Shown piece after piece: positions 957-47,534 of a DNA stretch of 47,534 bases. The notes under the pieces were generated by a model. It ran no database searches. It saw only the letters and a program-made list of their open reading frames with translations, and was not told the origin of the DNA. This DNA is from Parcubacteria group bacterium GW2011_GWD2_38_11 (GTDB lineage: Bacteria > Patescibacteriota > Minisyncoccia > Moranbacterales > GWC2-37-73). The translations under genes and the position numbers were made by a program. Within the stretch, counting starts at the first letter, position 1; every line of letters begins with the position of its first letter. The stretch is from positions 1 to 47,534 of the forward strand of contig LBTZ01000003.1 in the NCBI GenBank assembly GCA_000992325.1, in the 5' to 3' direction.

Positions 957-1232
957 ATGACAAACGTATCTCGGGAAAAAGCGAAGATAAACTTCAAAAA
1001 AGCCCGCACTCATATCGATAAGATCATATCAATGATTGAAGATGATAAATATTGCATCGACATTATGCAGCAGAATTTGGCAGTAATTGGTTTGCTTCGC
1101 AGTGCGCACAGTATGATAATGGAAGGTCATCTCAAGGGTTGTTTTTCTGATGCCTTCAACTCCAAAAGCATCAAAAAACATGATGAAATGATTGATGAAA
1201 TTCTGAAAGTCACGAAAATGTACAATAAATAA
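957..1232 (+). CDS. csoR: CsoR-family copper-sensing repressor
   Basis: A 91-residue all-helical protein of the CsoR/RcnR (DUF156) family, which binds DNA as apo-oligomers and releases it when Cu(I) binds. The Cu(I) triad is present as C33, H58 and C62 with the family spacing C-x24-H-x3-C (EGHLKGC). Basic helix 1 (KAKINFKKARTHIDKI) corresponds to the DNA-binding face. The gene is preceded by a palindromic operator and followed by HMA and CopA genes, the usual CsoR regulon. No SD precedes the ATG. A 12-codon upstream ORF (from ATG 922) ends in an ATGA overlap with this start; it may be chance or translational coupling. Confidence 0.93.
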   Translation: MTNVSREKAKINFKKARTHIDKIISMIEDDKYCIDIMQQNLAVIGLLRSAHSMIMEGHLKGCFSDAFNSKSIKKHDEMIDEILKVTKMYNK

Positions 1233-1235
1233 CTA

Positions 1236-1315
1236 ATAACCAACAACGAACAACTAACAACTAACAACTAACAACCCAAACTGTTGTAAGTAGTGAGTTG
1301 TCAGTTATGGGTTTA
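1236..1315. repeat. Inverted pair of heptamer arrays (CAACTAA / TTAGTTG type)
   Basis: Left arm: several tandem copies of CAACTAA-like heptamers. Right arm: degenerate copies in the opposite orientation (GTTGTAAGTAGTGAGTTGTC). The pair fills the csoR-HMA gap and could fold into a hairpin in the operon mRNA. Related pairs lie before the glycosyltransferase (17 kb) and near 27.4 kb. Confidence 0.75.
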
Positions 1316-11344: not shown

Positions 11345-11380
11345 TTGAAAGTTTATAAAGTTATAAAGTTTGTAAAGTAA
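11345..11380. repeat. Tandem AAAGTTTAT-type array
   Basis: Degenerate 8-9 bp units (GTTTATAAA, GTTATAAA, GTTTGTAAA) directly after uvrA. Similar arrays lie after the surface gene cluster (15.25 kb) and, in the opposite orientation, inside elp3 (46.9 kb). Confidence 0.6.
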
Positions 11381-11384
11381 TGGT

Positions 11385-11499
11385 GTCATTCCCGCGGAGG
11401 CGGGAATCCAGGCCCGAGACTAGCCATTGTTATTTTATTTATAATAAAAAATTTACAGAAACTAAGATGGGCTGGATTCCCATTTTCATGGGAATGATA
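11385..11499. mobile_element. MITE-like element with dRS3-type inverted ends
   Basis: About 115 bp. Each end is a 20-bp dyad of the form ATTCCC-N8-GGGAAT (11388-11407 and 11476-11495). Outside and inside these, the ends mirror each other (TCATTCCC...GGGAATCCAG against CTGGATTCCC...GGGAATGA), giving ~26-bp terminal inverted repeats around an AT-rich centre. No transposase is present. Repeats with this ATTCCC/GGGAAT core are known as dRS3 in Neisseria, and similar ones occur in many genomes. A relative sits in-frame inside elp3 at 46.0 kb. Confidence 0.7.
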
Positions 11500-11510
11500 A
11501 AGATGATAAA

Positions 11511-11972
11511 TTATATAAATAAAAGTATAATTGCCAAGAGTGAAAACAGTATATCATTCACGGCATTCCTCAAATTCCATTCTCTTTCTTTTGATCCATC
11601 TGCAAAGCGTCTGTGCACGAATTGATGGAATTTATATATTTTTTCTAAAAATTTGAAATTAAGTTTCCAATAGAGTACTGTCAATAAATCAGGAAACATC
11701 GAGATGATCGCACCTGTGATTATGGAGATGGAAATTGCTGGGGATATATTCTTGGTATAAATTGCAAAAAGAATAATAACGGCGCCAACAAAAAGGTCAA
11801 GAGCTATTTTCCAAACCGTATTTTTGAAAGTCGATTTTTTTCCTAAGTATTCTCCGTGACGAAAAACATCCAAAGCATAATGTAGTGGAATTAAAATTGC
11901 TGTTAACATTATGGGGTTGTGGATGTATTTTCCAATTGCGGCGCCAACGAGAGCGTGAGTAGTAAGGATCAT
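11511..11972 (-). CDS. Polytopic membrane protein, YdjM/DUF457-like metal-dependent hydrolase family (tentative)
   Basis: 153 residues with about four hydrophobic segments. An N-terminal THALVGAAIG, then HYALDVFRHG and FPDLL, place His and Asp residues as in the YdjM/DUF457 membrane-bound metal-dependent hydrolases. The reaction is unknown. The ATG has no SD. The gene is convergent with uvrA, across the MITE-like element, and divergent from rsmI. The family call rests on these short motifs only; a plain membrane protein is the alternative. Confidence 0.65.
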   Translation of the reverse strand: MILTTHALVGAAIGKYIHNPIMLTAILIPLHYALDVFRHGEYLGKKSTFKNTVWKIALDLFVGAVIILFAIYTKNISPAISISIITGAIISMFPDLLTVLYWKLNFKFLEKIYKFHQFVHRRFADGSKEREWNLRNAVNDILFSLLAIILLFI

Positions 11973-11977
11973 AGGGT

Positions 11978-12113
11978 AAAAATTTCTAATGTCTAATTTC
12001 TAATATCTAATAAAAATTTTAATGACAAAATGTCCAAAAGTTTCGTGCATTAGGAATTGGAAATTAATTAGAAATTGGTAATTAGGAATTAGAAATTAAA
12101 GATAAATTTAGAT
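11978..12113. repeat. Inverted pair of heptamer arrays (TTCTAAT / ATTAGAA) with shared core
   Basis: Left arm: TTCTAAT, GTCTAAT, TTCTAAT, ATCTAAT. Right arm: ATTAGAA, ATTGGTA, ATTAGGA, ATTAGAA, ATTAAAG, the reverse complement type. The loop contains AATAAAA, TAATGAC-x-AAAT and TTCGTGCATT, close to the loop of the element at 22.93-23.07 kb. It occupies the divergent gap before rsmI. Confidence 0.75.
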
Positions 12114-12148
12114 TCAAAAATTTTTATATTAAAAACACGTCTAATTTT

Positions 12149-12823
12149 ATGGAGAAAATCGGAAAATTATACATAGTTGCCACCCCTATCGGTAATCTTG
12201 AGGACATCACTCTTCGCGCCCTTCGAATTTTGAAAGAGGTTGACCTGATTGCCTGTGAGGATACGCGAGTAACCAGAAAACTTCTCAGTCATTATAACAT
12301 AGAGACACAGGCGATTGTATATCATCAGCACACTAAAGACGATAAGATTCAGAAAATTATTGATGAAATTTTGGCTGGTAAAGATGTGGCCGTGGTGACT
12401 GATGCAGGCACGCCAGGCGTTTCTGATCCCGGAAATATTTTGGTGGCTGAGGCGTTTGCTAATAACATTATTGTCTTGCCAATCCCTGGTGCTTCAGCGC
12501 TAGCTTCAATTATTAGTGTGGCTGGCATTGATATGCAACAGTTCACTTTTCTGGGTTTTCCGCCGCATAAAAAAGGTAGGGAAACATATTTCAAAAAGGT
12601 GTCTATCTTGGATATTCCAGTTGTATATTACGAATCGCCGCATCGTGTGATTAAAAATTTGGAAATGTTGTTAAAATTTGCACCTAATAAAAAAATTATC
12701 CTCGGTCGCGAGCTGACCAAAATGTTCGAAGAAATTATTCGTGGCAATATTTCTGAAGTATTGGAGTATTTTGCAAATAACCCTTCAAAAGTAAGGGGTG
12801 AATTTGTAGTGATAGTGCACTAA
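12149..12823 (+). CDS. rsmI: 16S rRNA (cytidine-1402-2'-O)-methyltransferase
   Basis: 224 residues, a short but complete RsmI of the tetrapyrrole (SAM) methylase superfamily. It 2'-O-methylates C1402 in the ribosomal P site. Motifs: GKLYIVATPIGNLEDITLRA at the start, CEDTRVTRKLL, VTDAGTPGVSDPG (SAM loop), PIPGASA, FLGFPP, YESPHR and GRELTKMFEE. The C-terminal region seen in longer RsmI proteins is reduced. It starts within 40 nt of a heptamer array pair and is followed by a strong terminator. Confidence 0.96.
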   Translation: MEKIGKLYIVATPIGNLEDITLRALRILKEVDLIACEDTRVTRKLLSHYNIETQAIVYHQHTKDDKIQKIIDEILAGKDVAVVTDAGTPGVSDPGNILVAEAFANNIIVLPIPGASALASIISVAGIDMQQFTFLGFPPHKKGRETYFKKVSILDIPVVYYESPHRVIKNLEMLLKFAPNKKIILGRELTKMFEEIIRGNISEVLEYFANNPSKVRGEFVVIVH

Positions 12824-14252: not shown

Positions 14253-15245
14253 ATGAAAAAAACAAAAAAACAATTAATGATGTATGGTTTGGTCGCAATT
14301 ATTTTTTGTGCGGTTTTTGTAGCGAGCACTGCGATAAAGGCTGGAGTTGGTGAGAATGTAACTGGTTGGATTTGGGGTGGTAGTAATGATGGCAATATTA
14401 CAGGGCAAGGGGTGATATCCTCAGGTGTCGGTTGGATCAGTATGAATAATACAAATATGGCTGGAGCTGTTTCTTATGGTGTTAATATTCCATTTACAGA
14501 TGGAAATCTCTCCGGTTCAGCTTATAGCGAAAACCTTGGATACATTGCATTTGATAATTCCAATGGATATCTTAATGGGTGTCCAATTCCAGATGCAACG
14601 CACAGTTGCAATGCCTATCGTGAGGGGAACTCAATCAAGGGTTGGGCTAGATTTGTGGAAATTTCCAAGGCTAGCGTGATTGGAAATTCAGGTGGATGGC
14701 TGGGTTGGATAAGGCTTAATGGACCGAGTTATGGGGTGACAATTGGAAATGATGGTAAATTGAGTGGCAATGCTTGGTCGGATGAACTTGGCGTGATCTC
14801 TTTCAGTGGACCAGGATACGGAGCTTCAATGCCACTTCCGCCAACAGTTGCGTTGGTTGTTAATCCATTGACTATTAATCTTGATTCTGGTTTGTTGCCG
14901 CAAAATGTTACGTTGACATGGACAGTTACTGGGGCAACAACCTGCACCAAAAGCGCTAATGGTGGGGTATGGAGTGGAACAATAAATGCTAGCGGAAATG
15001 AAACAGTGAGTCAAAGTGCTGCAACTGTGGAATATATATTGACTTGTACGGGAATTGCAAATCCTGTAAGAGTGAATGTTACTACGGGATGTGGTAAGAA
15101 GGAATGCAGTGGCGCAACTTGTGGTTCAACATTTATGGTTACAGGAACTTCTACTGTTGATTCTTGCACAGCCGCAAGTACGTGTTCATTGGATGCCGAT
15201 TGTGCAGCAAGAGGTATTACTGGTTGGAGCGAAGTGGCACCCTAA
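14253..15245 (+). CDS. Secreted surface protein with GWIWGG/GWISMN repeats
   Basis: 330 residues. Signal peptide (LVAIIFCAVFVASTAIKA). The N-terminal half repeats a motif with Trp/Ile/Gly and short strands (VTGWIWGGSNDGN, GVGWISMNNTN, LGYIAFDNSNGYLNG, LGWIRLNGPSYGV), resembling beta-structured CPR surface proteins. Then comes a probable Ig-like domain (about 195-275, VTLTWTVTGATTC). The Cys-rich tail (GCGKKECSGATC...CSLDADC) may be metal-bound or disulfide-linked. Likely displayed with the preceding surface protein. No enzymatic motif seen. Confidence 0.78.
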   Translation: MKKTKKQLMMYGLVAIIFCAVFVASTAIKAGVGENVTGWIWGGSNDGNITGQGVISSGVGWISMNNTNMAGAVSYGVNIPFTDGNLSGSAYSENLGYIAFDNSNGYLNGCPIPDATHSCNAYREGNSIKGWARFVEISKASVIGNSGGWLGWIRLNGPSYGVTIGNDGKLSGNAWSDELGVISFSGPGYGASMPLPPTVALVVNPLTINLDSGLLPQNVTLTWTVTGATTCTKSANGGVWSGTINASGNETVSQSAATVEYILTCTGIANPVRVNVTTGCGKKECSGATCGSTFMVTGTSTVDSCTAASTCSLDADCAARGITGWSEVAP

Positions 15246-15246
15246 G

Positions 15247-15284
15247 TAAGTTCATAAAGTTAAAAAGTTTGTAAAGTTTATAAG
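15247..15284. repeat. Tandem AAAGTTTRTAAAG-type array
   Basis: Units CATAAAGTT, AAAAAGTTT, GTAAAGTTT directly after the surface gene stop. Same family as 11.35 kb. Confidence 0.55.
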
Positions 15285-15302
15285 GCAAAATCAATCATAC
15301 AT

Positions 15303-15332
15303 AAAAAAATCCCGTCTCAGACGGGATTTTTC
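15303..15332 (+). terminator. Intrinsic terminator of surface cluster
   Basis: AAAAAAATCCCGTCT, CAG loop, AGACGGGATTTTT (12+ bp). It lies directly upstream of the argS promoter; its T-tract ends where the -35 begins. Confidence 0.92.
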
Positions 15333-15362
15333 TTGCCATAAAGCGATAATTGCAGGTATAAT
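15333..15362 (+). promoter_or_regulatory. argS promoter, predicts leaderless mRNA
   Basis: TTGCCA, 18-bp spacer, perfect TATAAT. The -10 is followed by 6 nt and then the ATG at 15369, where transcription should begin. Confidence 0.65.
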
Positions 15363-15368
15363 ATGGAT

Positions 15369-17009
15369 ATGAAAGAAGATATAAGAAAATTGCTTAAAAA
15401 GGCTGTTTTGGCGGCAAAAGAGGCTCATTCTTGGGGCGATTTTGAGATGTTTGAAATAACTGTTGATTATCCTAAAAATGAACAATTTGGAGATTATACT
15501 TCAAATATTGCGATGGTCTTGGCTAAGAAAGTGGGAAAAAACCCGATGAAGATAGCGAAAATACTGTCATTAGTCATCAGTCATCAGTCATCGGAAAATG
15601 GCGTGTTTGAAAAAATCGAAGTAGTTCAACCGGGATATCTTAATTTTTATCTTTCCAAAAAATATCTGCAAGAAATGGTGGAAAAAATAAATAGAGAGAA
15701 AAAAGACTTTGGAACCTCGCAAATCGGTGAAGGCATAAAAATAAACAATGAATTTATTTCTGCTAACCCAACTGGACCCTTGCATTTGGGAAATGGTCGC
15801 GGAGGATTTTATGGCGACGCACTTTCGCGCGTGCTGCGAAAAGCAGGATTTGACGTGACAAATGAATATTACGTTAATGATGCTGGCGGGCAAGTTGAGA
15901 AACTTGGACACAGTGTGCTTAAGGATGCAGAAGCTGTCTACGCTGGAGAATATATCAATGAATTGAATGAAAAATATGCGGAACTTGGTGATGTGCGAAA
16001 AGTCGGGCAATTGGCAGCAAAAGAAGTTTTGGAAAATATTATCAAAAAAACTACCAAGGAAAAAATGCAAATTGTTTTTGATGAATGGATGAGTGAACAA
16101 AAATTGAGTGATGAGGGATATGACCAACGCGCAATTGAAATGCTTAAAGAAAAAAAATTAACCTATGAATCTGAGGGTGCGTTGTGGCTCAGAACGACTG
16201 ACTTTGGCGATGATAAAGATAGGGTTTTGATCAAGAAAGATGGAAAAAATGCTTATATGGCTGGCGATTGCGGATATATGCTAAACAAGATTGAAAGAGG
16301 GTATTCGCGTTTGGTGATGGGATTAGGTGCTGATCATCATGGTTATGTTACGCGCATTAAAGCAGTGGCATTGGCATTGGGTTTTGTTGGAGATTTTCGG
16401 ATCATTATTTCTCAAATGGTGCGTCTTGTTAAAGATGGCAAAGAGGCTCGCATGAGCAAGCGCGCAGGCAACGTGATCAATCTTGATGATTTTATTGACG
16501 AGATTGGACATGATGTGACCAGGTTTTTCTTTTTGATGTATTCGCCAGACACTCATATGAATTTTGATTTAGGTCTTGCTAAGGAGCGCAGTGCTAAAAA
16601 TCCGGTTTATTATGTTCAATATGCACACGCGCGAATCGCCAGTATTCTTGCTAAAGCGCAAGAATCTGGAATTTCCAATTTCCCCTGGCCGGGCAGGCAA
16701 TTTCCAATTTCCAAACAAAATGAAAATATGTCTTTGCTTACACATGAAAAAGAGTTAAGTTTGATGAAAGAGTTGAATAAATTTCCGCAATTGGTGGAAG
16801 AAATTTCTGAAAATTATGAAGTTCACAAACTTCCACAATATGCGATGAAATTGGCTGATAAATTTCATAGTTTTTATGATGCTTGTCGCGTGATTGATGA
16901 GGAGAACGCAGAATTGACAAGCGCTAGACTTTCTTTGATAAATGCTGTTAGAATAGTGCTAGCTGAAACCCTGGATCTTATTGGGGTGGATGCGCCCGAA
17001 AAAATGTAG
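15369..17009 (+). CDS. argS: Arginyl-tRNA synthetase
   Basis: 546 residues, class I. Charges tRNA-Arg with arginine. The HIGH equivalent lies in SANPTGPLHLGNGRGGFYGD, followed by NEYYVNDAGGQ; the KMSK equivalent is ARMSKRAGN. The C-terminal anticodon-binding domain includes ARIASIL and ends with a DALR-type region. I choose the ATG at 15369 over the in-frame ATG at 15363, because the -10 box ends at 15362 and would place the transcript start at the second ATG. Two repeat-derived insertions are translated in-frame: about residues 66-75 (VISHQSS) and in ISNFPWPGRQFPIS near residue 440. Both lie in variable regions away from catalytic motifs. Confidence 0.97.
   Translation: MKEDIRKLLKKAVLAAKEAHSWGDFEMFEITVDYPKNEQFGDYTSNIAMVLAKKVGKNPMKIAKILSLVISHQSSENGVFEKIEVVQPGYLNFYLSKKYLQEMVEKINREKKDFGTSQIGEGIKINNEFISANPTGPLHLGNGRGGFYGDALSRVLRKAGFDVTNEYYVNDAGGQVEKLGHSVLKDAEAVYAGEYINELNEKYAELGDVRKVGQLAAKEVLENIIKKTTKEKMQIVFDEWMSEQKLSDEGYDQRAIEMLKEKKLTYESEGALWLRTTDFGDDKDRVLIKKDGKNAYMAGDCGYMLNKIERGYSRLVMGLGADHHGYVTRIKAVALALGFVGDFRIIISQMVRLVKDGKEARMSKRAGNVINLDDFIDEIGHDVTRFFFLMYSPDTHMNFDLGLAKERSAKNPVYYVQYAHARIASILAKAQESGISNFPWPGRQFPISKQNENMSLLTHEKELSLMKELNKFPQLVEEISENYEVHKLPQYAMKLADKFHSFYDACRVIDEENAELTSARLSLINAVRIVLAETLDLIGVDAPEKM
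15566..15593. repeat. In-frame heptamer array in argS (GTCATCA x4)
   Basis: Four tandem heptamers GTCATTA, GTCATCA, GTCATCA, GTCATCG translated as VISHQSS. A clean 7-bp tandem repeat within the N-terminal domain of a housekeeping enzyme. Confidence 0.8.
16668..16714. repeat. In-frame heptamer array with nested GC palindrome in argS
   Basis: CAATTTC-type heptamers are interrupted by CCCCTGGCCGGGCAGG, a small GC-rich palindrome, then resume. Translated as ISNFPWPGRQFPIS. The same CCTGGC...GCAGG palindrome type follows the array at 25.1 kb. Confidence 0.75.
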
Positions 17010-17011
17010 AA

Positions 17012-17107
17012 ATAACTAATAACAAACAACTAACCACTAACAACTAAAAACAGGGGCTCAATAAAGGATTTATGTTATAAGTTGTAAGTAGTAAGTTGTC
17101 AGTTAAT
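17012..17107. repeat. Inverted pair of heptamer arrays (CAACTAA / AAGTTGT)
   Basis: Left arm AACTAATAACAAACAACTAA and further units; right arm AAGTTGT, AAGTAGT, AAGTTGT, CAGTTAA. The loop is an unrelated 25-30 nt. The right arm ends 3 nt before the glycosyltransferase ATG. Confidence 0.75.
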
Positions 17108-17110
17108 TGT

Positions 17111-18287: not shown

Positions 18288-18530
18288 ATACAAAAGCGTT
18301 GATGAGGAAATCACCTCGGAGCTGCGAAAAGAAATCCCTTGGGAAAGTAGAATTCGTCGGGTAAGCCCGTAATAGCCGTAAAGAGAGCTTATTAGGCAGT
18401 AGCTTCTTAGCTTTTTAGGAAATGCATTTTTCTAAGAAGCTAAGAAGCTAAGAAGCTGAGAAGCTGAATTAAGGTGGTACCGCGTTGGAAGACGTCCTTA
18501 TGCATTTATTTGCATGGGGACATTTTTAAT
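18288..18530 (+). promoter_or_regulatory. T-box riboswitch controlling ileS
   Basis: The conserved T-box sequence AAGGTGGTACCGCG is at 18471-18484. It can pair its AAGG with CCTT (18496-18499) as antiterminator; the competing terminator is GTCCTTATGCA / TGCATGGGGAC plus ATTTTT (18494-18527). Stem I begins with GCGTTGATGAGGA and ends with AAAGAGAGC, the usual kink-turn strands. Uncharged tRNA-Ile binding should stabilise the antiterminator and switch on ileS. The specifier codon is not clear: the bases before AAAGAGAGC read AATAGCCGT, where ATA (Ile) is possible but AUC would be expected. The linker contains an expanded 8-bp tandem repeat. Confidence 0.9.
18432..18467 (+). repeat. Octamer tandem repeat within the T-box linker (AGAAGCTA x4)
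   Basis: Four tandem copies of AGAAGCTA/AGAAGCTG. The opposite strand of the hairpin is AGCTTCTTAGCTTTTTAG (18401-18418), so the long repeat offers several alternative pairing registers for the same partner. Confidence 0.8.
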
Positions 18531-18531
18531 T

Positions 18532-18655
18532 TCGAATACTGAATTTTGAATTTCGAATGAAGTCTGAATGATTGAATGTTTGAAATATTAGAAATTAAGA
18601 AATTAAAAATTGATTAAAAATTCAAAATTGGAAATTAAAAATTGCAGGCTGAAAT
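18532..18655. repeat. Degenerate heptamer array pair (TTGAATT/CGAATTT type)
   Basis: GAATACT, GAATTTT, GAATTTC, GAATGAA units, then AGTCTGAATGATTGAATG and an A-rich arm with ATTAAAAATTCAAAATTGG in reverse orientation. It lies between the T-box terminator and the ileS ATG, so it is part of the ileS leader. The segment CGAATNAARTCTGAATGAT recurs at the right edge of the window. Confidence 0.65.
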
Positions 18656-18707: not shown

Positions 18708-21647
18708 ATGTCATTTAAACGTGTTGATCCAAAACAAAGTTTGCCGGAGATGGAAAAAGAAATTTTGAAATTTTGGGCTGAGGAAAAAATATTTGAAAAA
18801 TCTTTAGAAACTCGCAGTGGCTCCCAGGAGTATACTTTTTATGATGGACCGCCTTTCGCAACTGGAACTCCTCATTATGGGCACTTGGTTGGTTCAACAA
18901 TGAAAGATGTGGTGCCGCGCTATTGGACAATGCGTGGATTTCACGTGGAAAGAAAGTGGGGTTGGGATTGTCATGGGCTGCCAATTGAAAATATTGTAGA
19001 AAAAGAATTGGGTTCAAAAGCCAAAAGTGAAATAGAAAAGTTGGGCGTGGAAAAATTTAATGAACTTTGCCGCAGCAAGGTGTTGGAATATGTGGATGTT
19101 TGGAAGGTTGTCATTAATCGCTTGGGACGCTGGGCTGATATGGATAATGCTTACAAAACGATGGATTTACCATATATGGAATCGGTCTGGTGGGTCTTTA
19201 AAGAACTTTGGAATAAGGGACTCATCTACGAAGGTTATCGTTCTATGCATGTTTGTCCGCGCTGCGAAACCACTCTTTCTCAACAGGAAGTTAGTGAGGG
19301 TTATGTTGATGTTAAAGATTTGTCCGTAATTGCAAAATTCGAGTTAATCTCTACGAATTACGAACAAGATACGAATGTACGAAATACGAAAGAATATATA
19401 CTAGCTTGGACCACAACTCCTTGGACACTTATTGGTAATGTGGCGCTGGCAGTTAATCCAGAAATGGATTACGTTTATGTTGAAACAACTAATGTGGAAA
19501 AGGATGGAACATTTTCAGAGGAAGTTTTTGTGGTGGCCAAGGATCGGGTGGGCGACTTGTTTAAAGATAGAAAAATTGAAATTGTGCGTGAAGTTTCAGG
19601 TGCGCAGCTAGTTGGTAAAAAATATAAACCTGTTTTTGATTATTATGCTAAATCCGATATTGAAAATTTTGAAAATGGTTGGAAAGTTGTGGGCGCAGAT
19701 TTTGTGGGAGCTGAGGATGGGACTGGTGTTGTGCATATTGCGCCAGCCTTTGGCGAGGACGATTTGAATTTGGGCAAAGAAAAAAATCTGCCATTTGTGC
19801 AGCACGTTGGAATGGATGGAATTATAAAAAAAGAGGCAGGAGAATTTGCTGGAATGCACATAAAACCAACTGATGATAGAACTGCAACCGATGTTGAAAT
19901 TATCAAATATCTGGCCAAAAATGGAATTCTTTTTGCCAAAGAAAAATATGAACATAGTTATCCGCATTGCTGGAGATGCGACACGCCGCTGATGAATTAT
20001 GCGACCAGTTCTTGGTTTGTAAAAGTTGCTGATATAAAATCAGACGCAATTGAATTGGCCAAGGAAATTCATTGGTCTCCTGAGCACATTAAAGAGGGGC
20101 GTTTTGGAAAGTGGTTGGAAGGTGCGCGTGATTGGTCAATTTCTCGTCAGCGTTTTTGGGCTTCTGTTATGCCAATCTGGAAATGCAAATGCGGCGAGAT
20201 GAAAGTTTTTGGCTCCGTGATGGAGCTGGAGGCTGCTAGCGGAGAGAAAATAACAGACCTGCATAAACATATTGTGGATAAAATTGTACTTAAATGTGAC
20301 GCTTGCAGTAGCGAGATGCGCCGCGTGCCTGATGTGCTCGACACCTGGTTTGATTCTGGTTCGATGCCGTATGCTCAACAACATTATCCGTTTGAAAATG
20401 CTGAGCAATTTGAAAAGAATTTTCCAGCTGAATTTATCGCAGAAGGTGTGGATCAAACACGTGCCTGGTTTTATTATCTGCACATCATTGCGTCTGCCAT
20501 CAAAAAAGCTCCAGCGTATAAAAACGTGATTGTAAATGGTATTGTGCTGGCTGAAGATGGAAAGAAGATGTCAAAGAAACTCAAAAATTATCCTGATCCA
20601 ATGGAGATGTTTGAAAAATATGGTGCGGATTCAGTCAGGTTTTATCTGATGAGTTCGCCGGTGGTCGCTGCGCAGAATTTGAATTTTGCAGAAAAAGATG
20701 TGGCAGAAATTGTGCGCGGAATGATGCGAATGCTTTGGAATTCGTATTCCTTTTTTGTGCTGTACGCCAATATTGATAAGTGGGAACATAAAGAACAATT
20801 TACGCATTCAACTGCAACAAATTTGTTGGATAGATGGATTCTTTCTGAGCTTAACACCTTGGTGATTTCAGTGCATAGTGGAATGGAAAATTATGAATTG
20901 CACCGAGCGGCGCGCGCTTTTCCAAAATTCATTGATGATATGTCCAACTGGTATGTTCGAAGATCGCGCAAGCGTTTTTGGAAATCGGAAAATGATGGCG
21001 ATAAAAATGAAGCATATGCAACGCTTCATCACGTGCTTGTGACACTGTCCAAAATGATGGCACCTTTTTCGCCTTTTATCGCTGAAGAAATTTATAAAAA
21101 TTTGACTGGCAAAGAGTCTGTGCATTTGGCTGATATGCCGACGGGGGATTATCACCACGTGGATGAACTTTTGAATGATCAGATGCGCAGTGTTCGTGAA
21201 ATTGTGACTCAGGGTTTGCAATTGCGCGCTCAGGCCAAAATCAAAGTTCGCCAACCGCTCGCAAAAGTGACAATCAAGGAATCAATTCTCGATGAACTTG
21301 CAGAAATAATTAAAGATGAACTTAATGTTAAAGAAGTTCTTGTGGATGCAAATCAAGAAGAAATGATTGTGTTGGATGTTGAAATAACCAAGGAATTGGC
21401 GCAAGAGGGAGTGGCACGCGAGATCGTGCGTCACATTCAAGAGATGCGCAAGGAGGCAGGTTATGAAGTTGACAATCGTATCAAAGTGTGCTATAATAGA
21501 CAATCAGAGGTGTTTGAAAAGTTTAATGCCTTGATTGCCAAAGAAACGCTTGCAGACTCCATTACTGAGGGAATTTGCGGGGATGCTGATTTGGTCAAGG
21601 AAATTATGCTAGATGAAAAGGTGTTGTCAATTTCCATTAAGAGGTGA
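18708..21647 (+). CDS. ileS: Isoleucyl-tRNA synthetase, type 2
   Basis: 979 residues, class I. Charges tRNA-Ile and edits valine. HIGH motif as GTPHYGH (HYGH 56-59) within YDGPPFATGTPHYGH, and KMSKK (620-623). The wording of these motifs matches the type 2 (eukaryote-like, usually mupirocin-tolerant) IleRS. The CP1 editing domain contains AWTTTPWTLIGNVALAVNP and the HIAPAFGEDD segment. A Cys cluster (CKCGEMK, CDACSSEM) lies near 500-540. An in-frame heptamer array encodes TNYEQDTNVRNTK at about residues 215-228, in the CP1 region. Expression is controlled by the T-box leader. Confidence 0.97.
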   Translation: MSFKRVDPKQSLPEMEKEILKFWAEEKIFEKSLETRSGSQEYTFYDGPPFATGTPHYGHLVGSTMKDVVPRYWTMRGFHVERKWGWDCHGLPIENIVEKELGSKAKSEIEKLGVEKFNELCRSKVLEYVDVWKVVINRLGRWADMDNAYKTMDLPYMESVWWVFKELWNKGLIYEGYRSMHVCPRCETTLSQQEVSEGYVDVKDLSVIAKFELISTNYEQDTNVRNTKEYILAWTTTPWTLIGNVALAVNPEMDYVYVETTNVEKDGTFSEEVFVVAKDRVGDLFKDRKIEIVREVSGAQLVGKKYKPVFDYYAKSDIENFENGWKVVGADFVGAEDGTGVVHIAPAFGEDDLNLGKEKNLPFVQHVGMDGIIKKEAGEFAGMHIKPTDDRTATDVEIIKYLAKNGILFAKEKYEHSYPHCWRCDTPLMNYATSSWFVKVADIKSDAIELAKEIHWSPEHIKEGRFGKWLEGARDWSISRQRFWASVMPIWKCKCGEMKVFGSVMELEAASGEKITDLHKHIVDKIVLKCDACSSEMRRVPDVLDTWFDSGSMPYAQQHYPFENAEQFEKNFPAEFIAEGVDQTRAWFYYLHIIASAIKKAPAYKNVIVNGIVLAEDGKKMSKKLKNYPDPMEMFEKYGADSVRFYLMSSPVVAAQNLNFAEKDVAEIVRGMMRMLWNSYSFFVLYANIDKWEHKEQFTHSTATNLLDRWILSELNTLVISVHSGMENYELHRAARAFPKFIDDMSNWYVRRSRKRFWKSENDGDKNEAYATLHHVLVTLSKMMAPFSPFIAEEIYKNLTGKESVHLADMPTGDYHHVDELLNDQMRSVREIVTQGLQLRAQAKIKVRQPLAKVTIKESILDELAEIIKDELNVKEVLVDANQEEMIVLDVEITKELAQEGVAREIVRHIQEMRKEAGYEVDNRIKVCYNRQSEVFEKFNALIAKETLADSITEGICGDADLVKEIMLDEKVLSISIKR
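19352..19391. repeat. In-frame heptamer array in ileS (TACGAAT type)
   Basis: TACGAAT, TACGAAC, (AAGA)TACGAATG, TACGAAA, TACGAAA. Translated as part of TNYEQDTNVRNTK just before the editing-domain motif AWTTTPWT. Confidence 0.75.
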
Positions 21648-22933: not shown

Positions 22934-23070
22934 GTCTCCAAATTTTCAATTTACAATTTTCAATTTCCAATAAAATCATAATGACTAAATATTAAATACT
23001 TTAATAATTTGTGCATTGAGAAATTGAGAATTGTTTGGAAATTGGAAATTGGTTATTGGAAATTATTGTC
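22934..23070. repeat. Inverted pair of heptamer arrays (CAATTTC / GAAATTG) with shared core
   Basis: Left arm CAATTTA, CAATTTT, CAATTTC, CAATAAA; right arm GGAAATT, GGAAATT, GGTTATT, GGAAATT. The loop has AATAAAA, TAATGAC-x-AAAT and TTTGTGCATT, matching the loop of the 11.98-12.11 kb element. It lies between recO and the next gene. Confidence 0.78.
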
Positions 23071-31361: not shown

Positions 31362-31367
31362 GTGGTT

Positions 31368-32165
31368 ATGAAAAGAAAAAATGTGATAATTGCCGTAGTT
31401 TTGTGCTTTTTGGCTGTACCTAGCCTTTATTTTGGCTTGAAAAAGATTCGAGAATCCAAAAAAACAGTTCAAATAAGTGTGACTGATTTACAACAAAATA
31501 GTGATAATCAGCCAGCTGAAATTATACCTGAAGTGCAGCAATCCGAAGATGCTTTGCAATCAGCTGAAAAACCTATTAACAATGACGAAGCAGTGGTTAT
31601 TGAAAATCAAGAAAAAGAAATTGCAGTGCCAAAACATTCAGAAAAAATATCGGAAGAAAAAACTGTTGAATCAGAAAAAACAGCTGAAACAAAAGGAGGG
31701 GTTGGAAAGATTGTCGATAAATTAATTTCATGGGGCTTCACAAATTCTTCCGGAAGAGTGGTGGATACAATCATCGTACATTCTTCTTATGACGCACTTG
31801 GAAATGATCCATATAGTGTTTCTGGAATTATTGCTGAATACAAGCAATATAATGTGTCAGCGCATTACTTGATTGCACGCGATGGTGTGATTTATCGTTT
31901 GGTGAAGGATGAAAATATTGCTTGGCATGCTGGCGTCAGTAAGGTACCGGATGAGCGAACAAACGTGAATGATTTCTCAATTGGAATTGAGATGATCAAC
32001 ACGGAGGATGGAAAATATTCCGATGAGCAATATAATTCGCTTAATTCGCTCATTGGAACATTGCAGAAAAAATACAAAATAAAATATATTCTCGGCCACA
32101 ATGAAATTGCCCCAGGCAGAAAGACGGACCCATGGAATATTGAGTGGGGAAAAGTGCGGAAATAA
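31368..32165 (+). CDS. Membrane-anchored N-acetylmuramoyl-L-alanine amidase (Amidase_2/PGRP)
   Basis: 265 residues from MKRKNVIIAVV. A GTG six bases upstream overlaps the leaderless start geometry and is not preferred. N-terminal anchor (VIIAVVLCFLAVPSLYFGL), then a ~75-residue Glu/Lys-rich spacer, then the amidase domain (about 120-265): IIVHSSYD (Zn His), SAHYLIARDGVIYRLV, AWHAGVS, SIGIEMINT, and ILGHNEIAPGRKTDPW (Zn His; Asp replaces the common Cys/Asp ligand). Cleaves the peptide from glycan strands. Its promoter overlaps that of the micro-operon. Confidence 0.93.
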   Translation: MKRKNVIIAVVLCFLAVPSLYFGLKKIRESKKTVQISVTDLQQNSDNQPAEIIPEVQQSEDALQSAEKPINNDEAVVIENQEKEIAVPKHSEKISEEKTVESEKTAETKGGVGKIVDKLISWGFTNSSGRVVDTIIVHSSYDALGNDPYSVSGIIAEYKQYNVSAHYLIARDGVIYRLVKDENIAWHAGVSKVPDERTNVNDFSIGIEMINTEDGKYSDEQYNSLNSLIGTLQKKYKIKYILGHNEIAPGRKTDPWNIEWGKVRK

Positions 32166-32288
32166 TTTTGAATTTCCAATTTTGAATTTCGAATCAAATA
32201 CGAATGTTTAAAAAATTCAATTTTGAAACATTAAAAATTCAATCGAAATTAGAAATTCATACTTCGAAATTAAAATTGAAATTTAATC
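32166..32288. repeat. Inverted pair of heptamer arrays (TTGAATT / ATTCAAT)
   Basis: TTGAATT, TCCAATT, TTGAATT, TCGAATC, then a loop with CGAATGTTTAAAAAATTCAA, then ATTCAAT, AATTAGAAATTCATACTTCG and AAATTGAAATT. It spans the gap from amidase to the TsaB-like gene and ends immediately before its ATG. Confidence 0.7.
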
Positions 32289-35279: not shown

Positions 35280-35335
35280 CACTTTTGTTTACAGTTTGTT
35301 TTTTGAGCTTACTTGTGTTGCAAAATTTAGTTTTG

Positions 35336-35420
35336 GCATGTAACATATAGCATGTAACATATGATAGAAGTCTAGAATTTCTGAATTTGTTATATGCTGT
35401 ATGTTTTATGTTATATGTAA
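35336..35420. repeat. Inverted repeat of 14-bp units (GCATGTAACATATA type)
   Basis: Left arm GCATGTAACATATA, GCATGTAACATATG; right arm TTATATGCTGTATGTTTTATGTTATATG split across units. Period 14 = 2 x 7. It ends 4 nt before the folD ATG. Confidence 0.7.
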
Positions 35421-35424
35421 ATTT

Positions 35425-42797: not shown

Positions 42798-42804
42798 ATT
42801 ACTT

Positions 42805-42842
42805 TATGAACCTTACAAACCTTAAAAACTTTTTAACTATTG
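42805..42842. repeat. Short heptamer-like array before HAD gene
   Basis: AACCTTACAAACCTTAAAAA and CTTTTTAACT; degenerate 7-9 bp units ending just before the ATG. Confidence 0.45.
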
Positions 42843-42843
42843 T

Positions 42844-43523: not shown

Positions 43524-43562
43524 GAAAATTTAATGAAAATTGTGAATTGAAAATTGAAAATT
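43524..43562. repeat. Heptamer array before rlmN (ATTGAAA type)
   Basis: ATTGAAA units ending in a 28-nt segment (43535-43562) that recurs without change inside rlmN at 44015-44042. Confidence 0.8.
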
Positions 43563-43570
43563 ATTTATTT

Positions 43571-44629
43571 ATGGATATTAAAAAACTGCAACAATTTTTG
43601 GATGAAAACGGTTTGCCCAAGTTTCGCTTGGGGCAAATTCAGAAAGCCATCTTTACAGATGGTGTTTTTTCGTTTGGCGAAATAACAACATTGTCTAAGG
43701 AGTTAAGAGAGAAAATGGAAAAGGAGCTGCGATTGCTTTCTTTTGAAATAGAAAAAGTTTTGACAGCTAAAGACGGGCAATCAATAAAGGCGCTCTTGAA
43801 ATTGCACAGTGGTGACCTGATTGAAACAGTTTTGATTTCACCCAAACCTGGCATTTGGTCGGCTTGTATTTCTTGTCAGGTTGGTTGTGCGATGGGGTGT
43901 CGATTTTGCGCAACTGGTAAAATGGGATTCAAGCGTGATCTTACTGCTGAAGAAATTACCGATCAAATTTTGTTTTGGAAACAATATCTAAAAAAGAATT
44001 CTTCCGATTTGTTTGAAAATTGTGAATTGAAAATTGAAAATTGCGATGTGAATAACATCGTGTACATGGGAATGGGGGAGCCATTTAATAACTGGAAAGA
44101 GGTTTCTGAAAGTATAAAAATTTTGACTGACGAAAAACTTTTTGGTTTTGGTTCTCGCAGTATTTCAGTTTCAACTTCAGGCATCGCTGAAGGAATCGAA
44201 AGAATGGCAAATGAATTTCCTCAAGTAAATCTGGCAATCTCGCTGCATTTTGCGAGCAATGAAAAACGCAACCGCTTTATGCCGATTAATAAAAAGGATA
44301 ACTTGGAAAATTTAAGAGATGCGCTGAAAAAATATTTCACCATCACTAAGCGTAAAGTTTTTTTGGAATATATAATGTTGGATGGAATAAATGACACAGC
44401 ACTTGATGCAAAATTGCTTGCTGATTTTATATACTCAATTGGCAATACGCATCTTCTGCATATGAATCTTATTCGATACAATATGACATCGGAAGAGCTC
44501 AAGCCATCTTCAAAAACTCGCACGCAACTTTTCAAACAGGAGCTTGAAAAGCACAATATTAACGCCACTATCCGAAAAAGCCTCGGCGAGGAAATCGAAG
44601 CCGCTTGTGGACAACTTGCGGGGAAGTAG
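43571..44629 (+). CDS. rlmN: 23S rRNA (adenine-2503-C2)-methyltransferase
   Basis: 352 residues from MDIKKLQQFLDENG; an upstream in-frame ATG lies within the repeat. Radical-SAM methyltransferase of A2503 in 23S rRNA (and tRNA A37 in some bacteria). Cluster motif CAMGCRFCATGKMGF preceded by ISCQVGC; NIVYMGMGEPFNNW; SVSTSGIAEGI; NLAISLHFASNEKRNRFMPI; and the catalytic Cys near the end (EEIEAACGQLAG). An in-frame 28-nt copy of the upstream repeat encodes ENCELKIEN at about 149-158 inside the fold. Core motifs are intact. Confidence 0.96.
   Translation: MDIKKLQQFLDENGLPKFRLGQIQKAIFTDGVFSFGEITTLSKELREKMEKELRLLSFEIEKVLTAKDGQSIKALLKLHSGDLIETVLISPKPGIWSACISCQVGCAMGCRFCATGKMGFKRDLTAEEITDQILFWKQYLKKNSSDLFENCELKIENCDVNNIVYMGMGEPFNNWKEVSESIKILTDEKLFGFGSRSISVSTSGIAEGIERMANEFPQVNLAISLHFASNEKRNRFMPINKKDNLENLRDALKKYFTITKRKVFLEYIMLDGINDTALDAKLLADFIYSIGNTHLLHMNLIRYNMTSEELKPSSKTRTQLFKQELEKHNINATIRKSLGEEIEAACGQLAGK
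44015..44042. repeat. In-frame copy of the 28-nt repeat inside rlmN
   Basis: Identical over 28 nt to the segment upstream of the same gene (GAAAATTGTGAATTGAAAAT and the following 8 bases). Read as ENCELKIEN. Confidence 0.9.
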
Positions 44630-44644
44630 ATAGTATAAGGTATT

Positions 44645-44669
44645 TTGTAGAATGTAGAATGTATAATGT
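44645..44669. repeat. Heptamer array after rlmN (GTAGAAT type)
   Basis: GTAGAAT, GTAGAAT, GTATAAT, GTAT, directly preceding a terminator hairpin. Confidence 0.7.
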
Positions 44670-44671
44670 AT

Positions 44672-45602: not shown

Positions 45603-45665
45603 AATGTTTGAAAATTGAGACATTGGAAATTTATTGGAAATTGGAAATTGAGATTTGGAAATTTT
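45603..45665. repeat. Heptamer array between Nudix and elp3 (GGAAATT type)
   Basis: ATTGGAA, ATTTATTGGAAATTGGAAATT and related units, one orientation only. Matches the right arm of the 22.9 kb element. Confidence 0.65.
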
Positions 45666-47483: not shown

Positions 47484-47534
47484 TTAGAAAATTTTGAATT
47501 TCGAATTTTGAATTTCGAATCAAATCTGAATGAT
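47484..47534. repeat. Heptamer array at window edge (TTGAATT/TCGAATT), cut off
   Basis: TTGAATT, TCGAATT, TTGAATT, TCGAATC, then AAATCTGAATGAT, matching the 18.54 kb element. The right arm is outside the window. Confidence 0.75.

Follow-up and report, generated by a model that had tools for sequence, protein, structure and literature searches.

The window analysed here is a complete contig of 47.5 kb (47,534 nucleotides) of Parcubacteria group bacterium GW2011_GWD2_38_11, whose genome of 936 kb in 39 contigs is ~90% complete; sampled genomes of the phylum are mostly 0.5-2 Mb. At 11981-12097 of this window, an element built from two opposed arms lies between two divergent genes, one at 11511-11972 (-) and an rsmI-like gene at 12149-12823 (+). 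The left arm is a 31-bp array of the form (AATNNNN)4AAT, the inner part is 55 bp long and the right arm, also 31 bp, is inverted. The first-pass annotation had extended this element to 12113, which puts its 3' boundary ~16 bp too far. The elements and arrays of the window are the following (no strand is given to those marked unstranded):

1228..1313, unstranded: AACTAAC-class element with opposed 31-bp arms (1238-1268 and 1283-1313), 77% complementary
11981..12097, unstranded: focal element, with left arm 11981-12011, inner part 12012-12066 and inverted arm 12067-12097; covariance model score 83.7 bits
15566..15592, + strand: GTCATCA array, in frame in argS (LVISHQSS)
16671..16715, + strand: AATTTCC array interrupted by the GC-rich palindrome CCTGGCCGGGCAGG, in frame in argS
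17011..17110, unstranded: AACTAAC-class element between argS and a glycosyltransferase gene, with 38-nt arms, 76% complementary
18399..18465, + strand: octamer (CTAAGAAG) hairpin array inside the T-box leader 18290-18502
18528..18643, unstranded: G-class element (AATTTTG/AATTTCG) between the T-box and the start of a class-I tRNA synthetase gene; covariance-model match
22941..23064, unstranded: second element, with arms 22941-22971 and 23034-23064, between recO and a gene starting at ~23144; 88.9 bits
26105..26135, + strand: single 31-bp arm (AATTTCC)4AAT, in frame in tgt, giving a 10-residue peptide
32164..32271, unstranded: G-class element directly 3' of the stop of the amidase gene 31362-32165; 66.8 bits
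35325..35422, unstranded: CATGTAACATATA (2x7) element overlapping the predicted folD start, with 38-nt arms, 74% complementary
43538..43562, unstranded: single arm 5' of the rlmN-like gene, a 25-mer identical to that at 44018 on the same strand
44018..44043, + strand: TTGAAAA array, in frame in the radical-SAM (rlmN-like) gene
44646..44671, unstranded: single GTATAAT/GTAGAAT array 3' of the rlmN-like gene
45622..45663, unstranded: ATTGGAA arm(s); site empty in the related genomes G001 and G003
47490..47520, unstranded: G-class left arm, truncated by the contig end

The element at 1228..1313 overlaps the end of the csoR-like gene at 957-1232, and in the stretch 1233-1556 it stands between this csoR-like repressor and a short frame resembling a heavy-metal-binding protein of the copper chaperone type, which precedes a copper-type P-ATPase gene. 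A TTG start at 23009 lies within the second element. Likewise, the predicted folD start codon (35401) is inside a repeat arm, and the true start may be downstream. A further inverted repeat, with ATTCCCGC..GCGGGAAT as its type, occupies 11395-11500, next to a 9-bp (AAAGTTTAT) array at 11348.

Phasing and geometry of the arrays

We found that the 6.7 kb of intergenic DNA in the window contains 85 self-matching windows at lag 7, compared to 1.6 ± 1.9 in dinucleotide shuffles, with 90 versus 1.1 at lag 14 and 41 versus 0.7 at lag 21. Lags 4, 5, 6, 10 and 13 stay at about background in the same test, while lag 8 is also raised (42 versus 1.5) with the T-box octamer array as its main source. Furthermore, a scan covering 352 kb of this genome yielded 44 period-7 arrays (45 rows, less one run of N) and none in order-2 shuffles, periods 8 and 9 being present in small numbers. 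A second detector run gave 75 period-7 arrays in the 352 kb and none in 100 kb of E. coli, and the arm pattern with 8-bp spacing, used as control, is far rarer in this genome than with 7-bp spacing (3 versus 93 matches). The 7-bp periodicity and the opposed-arm pairing of the arrays are confirmed, including the enrichment over shuffled intergenic DNA that the first-pass annotation had set as a test. Its picture of mostly 7-bp, usually paired arrays in gaps between genes holds for period and pairing, but some arrays are unpaired, four of those in the window are inside coding genes and the T-box array has a period of 8.

The typical element is ~115 bp long and consists of two 31-bp arms carrying a 7-base repeat in opposite directions around a partly palindromic inner part. 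We found 30 such paired elements in the 352 kb; their median spacer measures ~54 bp. When 19 of these elements were aligned, the AAT/ATT triplets proved almost invariant and the four bases between them variable. When 798 kb of DNA from three congeneric species were searched without regard to unit sequence, the arm length mode was exactly 31 bp (4x7+3), seen in 51 of 197 arrays that fall into 58 unit classes; arrays of 30-32 bp make up 47% of the total, with nearly equal shares for AAT-type units (49%) and other units (45%), and arrays of at least 40 bp are almost missing from the three genomes. Arm length and phasing are thus common across unit classes, as the earlier claim that the architecture is kept and the unit varies would have it. 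Because the arm measures ~31 bp whatever the unit sequence, free slippage, which should give a broad length distribution, is unlikely, and the fixed arm length is the strongest argument for a defined element.

Adjacent arrays with the same unit are mostly inverted rather than direct, in a ratio of 28:5 when stretches from the genus and from other phyla are taken together; adjacent pairs were inverted in 15 cases and direct in 3, unlike unpaired STRR-type arrays. Unpaired arrays also exist, with 97 matches to the AAT arm pattern outside 49 paired elements in the 798 kb, many of these matches being one array read on both strands.

Next to the geometry, we considered the pairing between arms. In arm pairs 82.7% of the cells pair (77.2% in shuffled data), and 49 double changes were counted versus 26 ± 4. 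These arm-to-arm double changes are found mainly in the 7th base of the heptad, where the same letter tends to recur across all units of both arms and so defines the unit class. Within a unit class, however, complementarity is no higher between the two arms of an element (0.578) than between arms taken from different elements (0.580). It is therefore the phasing and the unit class that are conserved, not exact pairing. A strict selection on the hairpin, with fine compensatory evolution, is not supported on the same grounds, as the 7th-base covariation is not accompanied by better pairing within elements than between them.

Small GC-rich palindromes of ~15-35 bp are nested in heptad elements, frequently right behind the left arm. 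Examples are found in G055, a genome of a distant family (L164, L170, L171 and L175), in the genome under study (L030:14767, L044:15399 and L035:17424) and in the window itself at ~16685. Comparison of C1:58963 of this genome with G001 gives a clean insertion of such a palindrome.

Copies and turnover among related genomes

A BLAST search returned 22 places in the genome at E<=1e-3, the copies being diverged to ~70-75% over their full length. A covariance model built from 19 elements of the genome, including those at 11981 and 22941, gave at least 99 matches on both strands, corresponding to ~50 elements or more, and at least 61-78 both-strand matches per genus-mate, corresponding to at least 30-40 elements in each of five; these per-genome counts are lower bounds from the first 150 candidates scored. 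A genome-wide family, as first proposed, is thereby borne out. Moreover, nine loci of the genome, five of them exact, share an imperfect arm in which different heptads follow one another in the same order (TTTTC-TTTTC-TTCAC), and G055 has ~16 copies that share an arm consensus, an inner part and flush ends. Direct sequence comparison of the 11981 and 22941 elements gave the common core AATAAAA..TAATGAC-x-AAAT..GTGCATT, in agreement with the loop likeness already noticed in the first-pass annotation, and the common descent it had proposed for the two fits their full-length matches to one model (83.7 and 88.9 bits, both being among its 19 source sequences). The core sequence also occurs in named CPR contigs (L058, L076, L086, L097, L109, L119 and L122).

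At orthologous gaps, which were compared with those of five genus-mates, the arrays turn over between relatives. Among 54 comparisons from three genome pairs, 13 partner gaps hold a homologous array, 18 another palindrome and 19 other sequence (several of which are other arrays by eye), and 4 are short. For an array in one species, the corresponding gap of the other is at least 60 bp long in 50 of 54 cases, compared to 212 of 300 reference comparisons, and often holds another palindrome. Such re-use of sites may mean either that a hairpin is needed or that few sites tolerate insertions. The presence/absence polymorphism that had been named as a second test is found as clean empty sites: G003:C11:249815 measures 99 bp versus 6 bp in G001, and G003:C11:138645 106 versus 27 bp between flanking proteins that are 100 and 98.6% identical. 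Clean swaps between near-identical flanks were also seen, at C1:25530 and C1:34770 of the genome under study.

The elements of the window differ in their fate. The focal element has a near-identical orthologue in G003 (115/117 identical, 98.3%), whereas the neighbouring genes are only 77.5% and 80.7% identical, with differences mostly at third codon positions by eye; G001, G002, G004 and G005 have unrelated palindromes or other sequence in the same gap. The identity at this locus suggests constraint or a recent local exchange and, because it so exceeds that of the flanking genes, some copies, the focal element among them, may be functional. In the orthologous gap (window 11973-12148), the same unrelated CATGTGAT palindrome is present in G002 and G005 in opposite orientations. 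The second element has no high conservation like that of the focal element, being present in G003 with diverged arms and replaced in G001 and G004. The element at 17011..17110 has near-identical arms and a diverged loop in G003, the one at 18528..18643 is absent in G001 and G003, the one at 35325..35422 is absent in G001, and the gap of the 43538..43562 arm is nearly empty in G003.

Arrays also lie inside genes, 14 of 53 being in frame within long ORFs. In the window these are the four at 15566, 16698, 26105 and 44018. At the tgt site, (AATTTCC)4AAT is also found in G003, a different heptamer occupies the same point in G001 and there is none in G004. At the 15566 point of argS, the window has a TGATGAC-type array, G001 and G003 an ACAACTT-type insert (LQLTTYNLQQ), and G002 and G004 (N-terminal region; L018-L019 and L020-L022) a palindrome-type peptide, HPELVSGS..LKQVQHD, which is known from other bacteria as the translated form of a different, widespread palindromic repeat. 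The 16671..16715 site holds a complete AACTAAC-type element in G001 and G002 and none in G004. The argS of G003 (G003:C11, L023, ~14869-16540) has only ~42% protein identity to that of the window in a conserved gene order, and has apparently been replaced by a different argS lineage.

The octamer array forms part of a predicted T-box leader at 18290-18502, which matches RF00230 with 64.1 bits (E 1e-13), short of the 93 bits set as its curated gathering score; at gathering thresholds, Rfam has no match anywhere in the window. The repeat hairpin forms one stem of this leader. In G004, where the T-box match reaches 47.3 bits, a heptamer hairpin takes the place of the octamer hairpin. The T-box probably controls the gene at 18708 for a class-I aminoacyl-tRNA synthetase of 979 aa. 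For annotation, these elements matter since they introduce peptides in frame into essential proteins, extend across predicted start codons and mask an RNA leader from standard models.

Distribution and described heptamer repeats

Of 116 genomes from the phylum, 61 have the strict arm pattern, compared to 23 for the same pattern at 8-bp spacing. In a collection of 84,980 genomes, the matches listed for the paired form include Bacteroidota, Planctomycetota, Acidobacteriota, Cyanobacteria, Bacillota, Verrucomicrobiota and others; four cross-phylum matches (L046, L064, L108 and L124) are one long array matched twice and were excluded as evidence for pairing. Cross-phylum stretches were picked by contig, not by match, within genomes already known to hold matches. 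Those from Blastocatellia, Chitinophaga and Planctomycetota contain opposed pairs of the same kind, some with AGGACTG/CAGTCCT units, and their arms have medians of 30-34 bp. In Chitinophaga, two elements gave full-length matches to the covariance model, and Acidobacteriota have more GC-rich versions. Stretches from Lysobacter, Thermoanaerobaculales and Alkaliphilus have few or no arrays, and the cyanobacterial arrays are long, variable and often unpaired. The elements are not a CPR speciality.

Cyanobacterial STRR are short tandemly repeated repetitive heptamers. The elements resemble them as intergenic tandem heptamers and differ in their 31-bp mode and inverted pairs, the cyanobacterial arrays being variable, often long and unpaired. 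Likewise, non-coding character, small size, terminal inverted repeats (the 31-bp arms) and dispersed homologous copies are shared with MITEs. MITEs, REPINs and REP sequences are short, scattered palindromes that do not themselves encode a transposase (PMC10969869, PMC3116915, PMC3733652); unlike for these, we found no partner transposase, terminal tetranucleotide tag or target-site duplication here.

Reports of a heptamer excess in bacteria go back to at least 2007 (cited in PMC4692102), and the excess has so far been treated as slippage or as single-unit curiosities. The Xanthomonas GGGAATC and Nostoc GGGGA(T/C)T heptamers are mostly intergenic, with four units commonest in Xanthomonas, where 70-75 cases per genome have two nearby sites in opposite orientation (PMC4692102). 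Short arrays with a mode of four units in close opposed pairs are thus common to Xanthomonas and the genomes studied here. There, however, one G-rich unit was studied as a G-quadruplex former (PMC4692102), whereas here the units are many and AT-rich and belong to a defined element of 115 bp that includes an inner part, insertions also occur in frame and in a T-box, and the elements turn over between species. In Geobacter metallireducens, four to five tandem 7- or 8-mers are reported, mostly as opposite-strand pairs with a variable middle, which are read as binding sites of global regulators and, unlike here, have few fixed unit sequences (PMC2700814). In the P6b hairpin of Nostoc trnL, two heptad-repeat classes build both sides of the stem of a functional RNA, and one class repeatedly replaces the other (PMC4476775); the exchange of octamers and heptamers in the T-box stem parallels this replacement, P6b being a single locus. 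The first-pass annotation had held the paired inverted form to be outside the described classes, which these reports from Xanthomonas, Geobacter and Nostoc contradict. The intergenic TAACTGA arrays of Beggiatoaceae, with two to six units at many genes, have one unit and are nearly all direct (169 direct sets, one indirect), unlike the inverted pairs here (PMC4679880).

Rickettsia palindromic elements (RPE) are ~150-bp palindromes of several sequence families that are found in frame in unrelated genes (PMC10969869). According to published descriptions, they encode a conserved peptide per family, unlike the elements here (PMC10969869). In-frame insertion into unrelated genes (the 14 of 53 arrays above) is a point of likeness. 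To our knowledge, heptad phasing is not known in RPEs. What a partial literature search did not find described, which is weak evidence for novelty, is the fixed 31-bp-arm architecture across unit classes and phyla, together with turnover at shared sites.

Origin of the elements

The best reading, in which we have moderate confidence, is that the elements are a MITE/REP-like class of non-autonomous mobile palindromic repeats. This reading is favoured by their dispersal, fixed arm length, presence/absence between relatives, in-frame insertions, the 28:5 excess of inverted pairs and the nested palindromes, nested palindromes being typical of insertion sinks. It is weakened by the failure to find a target-site duplication, a Y1 transposase or a transposase-bearing element, by wholesale swaps at the same site between species, which differ from the prediction of simple insertion, and by the long and variable cyanobacterial arrays, which are as slippage would give. 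Recent movement within the genome is not demonstrated either, because the copies are diverged. The term "mobile element" used in the first-pass annotation therefore remains unproven, although its presence/absence component stands.

No target-site duplication was detected in 46 elements, with matches of at least 5 bp in 11% of cases versus 10% in the control; flank matches of at least 4 bp were more frequent (41% versus 26%) and a duplication of 2-4 bp is possible. With arms allowed up to 4 kb apart, no autonomous copy carrying a transposase was recognised in the 798 kb, a part of the genomes concerned, by a search in which ORFs between arms were not profiled.

In general form, the inverted arms are (XYZ NNNN)4 XYZ, five triplets at 7-bp spacing in 31 bp. 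Under the mobile reading, a trans-acting enzyme would recognise the folded or phased arms by geometry more than by sequence and would copy or move the element without duplicating target bases, with several unit classes coexisting in one genome. A minority of copies might later be used by the host, as in the T-box stem and possibly in the 11981 element. More tentatively, mobile palindromes in several phyla could be defined by geometry and not by sequence, moved by an enzyme that reads spacing or the folded hairpin; we regard this wider proposal as possible but speculative. The fixed 4x7+3 arm, independent of the unit and present in several phyla, leads to the testable question of what measures 31 bp in 7-bp steps.

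An origin without mobility is rather unlikely; in that case arrays would arise locally by slippage in 7-nt steps at hairpin-prone sites and the second arm by fold-back (template-switch) synthesis. Polymerase slippage is a published explanation for the heptamer excess across bacteria (PMC4692102), and the agreement of unit class between both arms and among all four units, the different units that one site can carry in different species and the long, variable cyanobacterial arrays are all in line with it. Fixed arms of ~31 bp, with almost none of 40 bp or more in the three genus genomes, and the identical order of imperfect units with identical inner sequence at unlinked loci speak against it; equal complementarity within and between elements of a class (0.578 versus 0.580) would be unexpected from fold-back unless the copying is old.

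We consider it unlikely that the elements are at heart host cis-elements, that is, hairpins selected at gene ends, promoters and leaders as terminators, insulators or determinants of mRNA stability, with the unit free to change. The high identity of the 11981 element to its G003 orthologue relative to the flanking genes, the T-box stem that stays a hairpin with octamers here and heptamers in G004, and the long partner gaps (50/54 versus 212/300), often with another palindrome, fit such a role, but co-occupied gaps may simply be permissive ones. In-frame insertions in tgt, argS and the rlmN-like gene have no obvious cis role, empty sites exist, the 11981 element is flanked by divergent genes, a setting that calls for no terminator, and the arms have no fine compensatory covariation beyond the unit class.

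Movement by Y1 (TnpA-REP) transposases, as for REP/RAYT palindromes, is very improbable. IS200/IS605-type transposition leaves no target-site duplication, and the result above is compatible with it. Across 116 genomes of the phylum, presence of the Y1 transposase (PF01797) tracks arm count, with 29 of 42 genomes having at least five arm matches carrying it versus 24 of 74 with fewer (Fisher p 2e-4), an association that may reflect general repeat load. However, PF01797 has no match in the ~90% complete genome under study nor in G027, which has 104 arm matches, and the flanks of 20 Y1 loci mostly bear other GC-rich hairpins, with a heptamer array within 1 kb at one and flanking paired arms at none. 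The Y1 transposase was accordingly rejected as mobiliser.

Finally, chance, the composition of AT-rich DNA with its simple units, or faulty assembly can be dismissed for practical purposes, given the zero arrays in shuffles, the strong excess over dinucleotide shuffles, the lack of arrays in 100 kb of E. coli, the more GC-rich versions in Acidobacteriota and the occurrence in many independent assemblies, including isolates.

Besides the heptamers, the genome has period-9 arrays (AAAGTTTAT type), which rank second in frequency among its short periods. In the window they are found at 11348-11378, 15246-15295 and 42798-42843, and the region of the last is nearly identical in G001.
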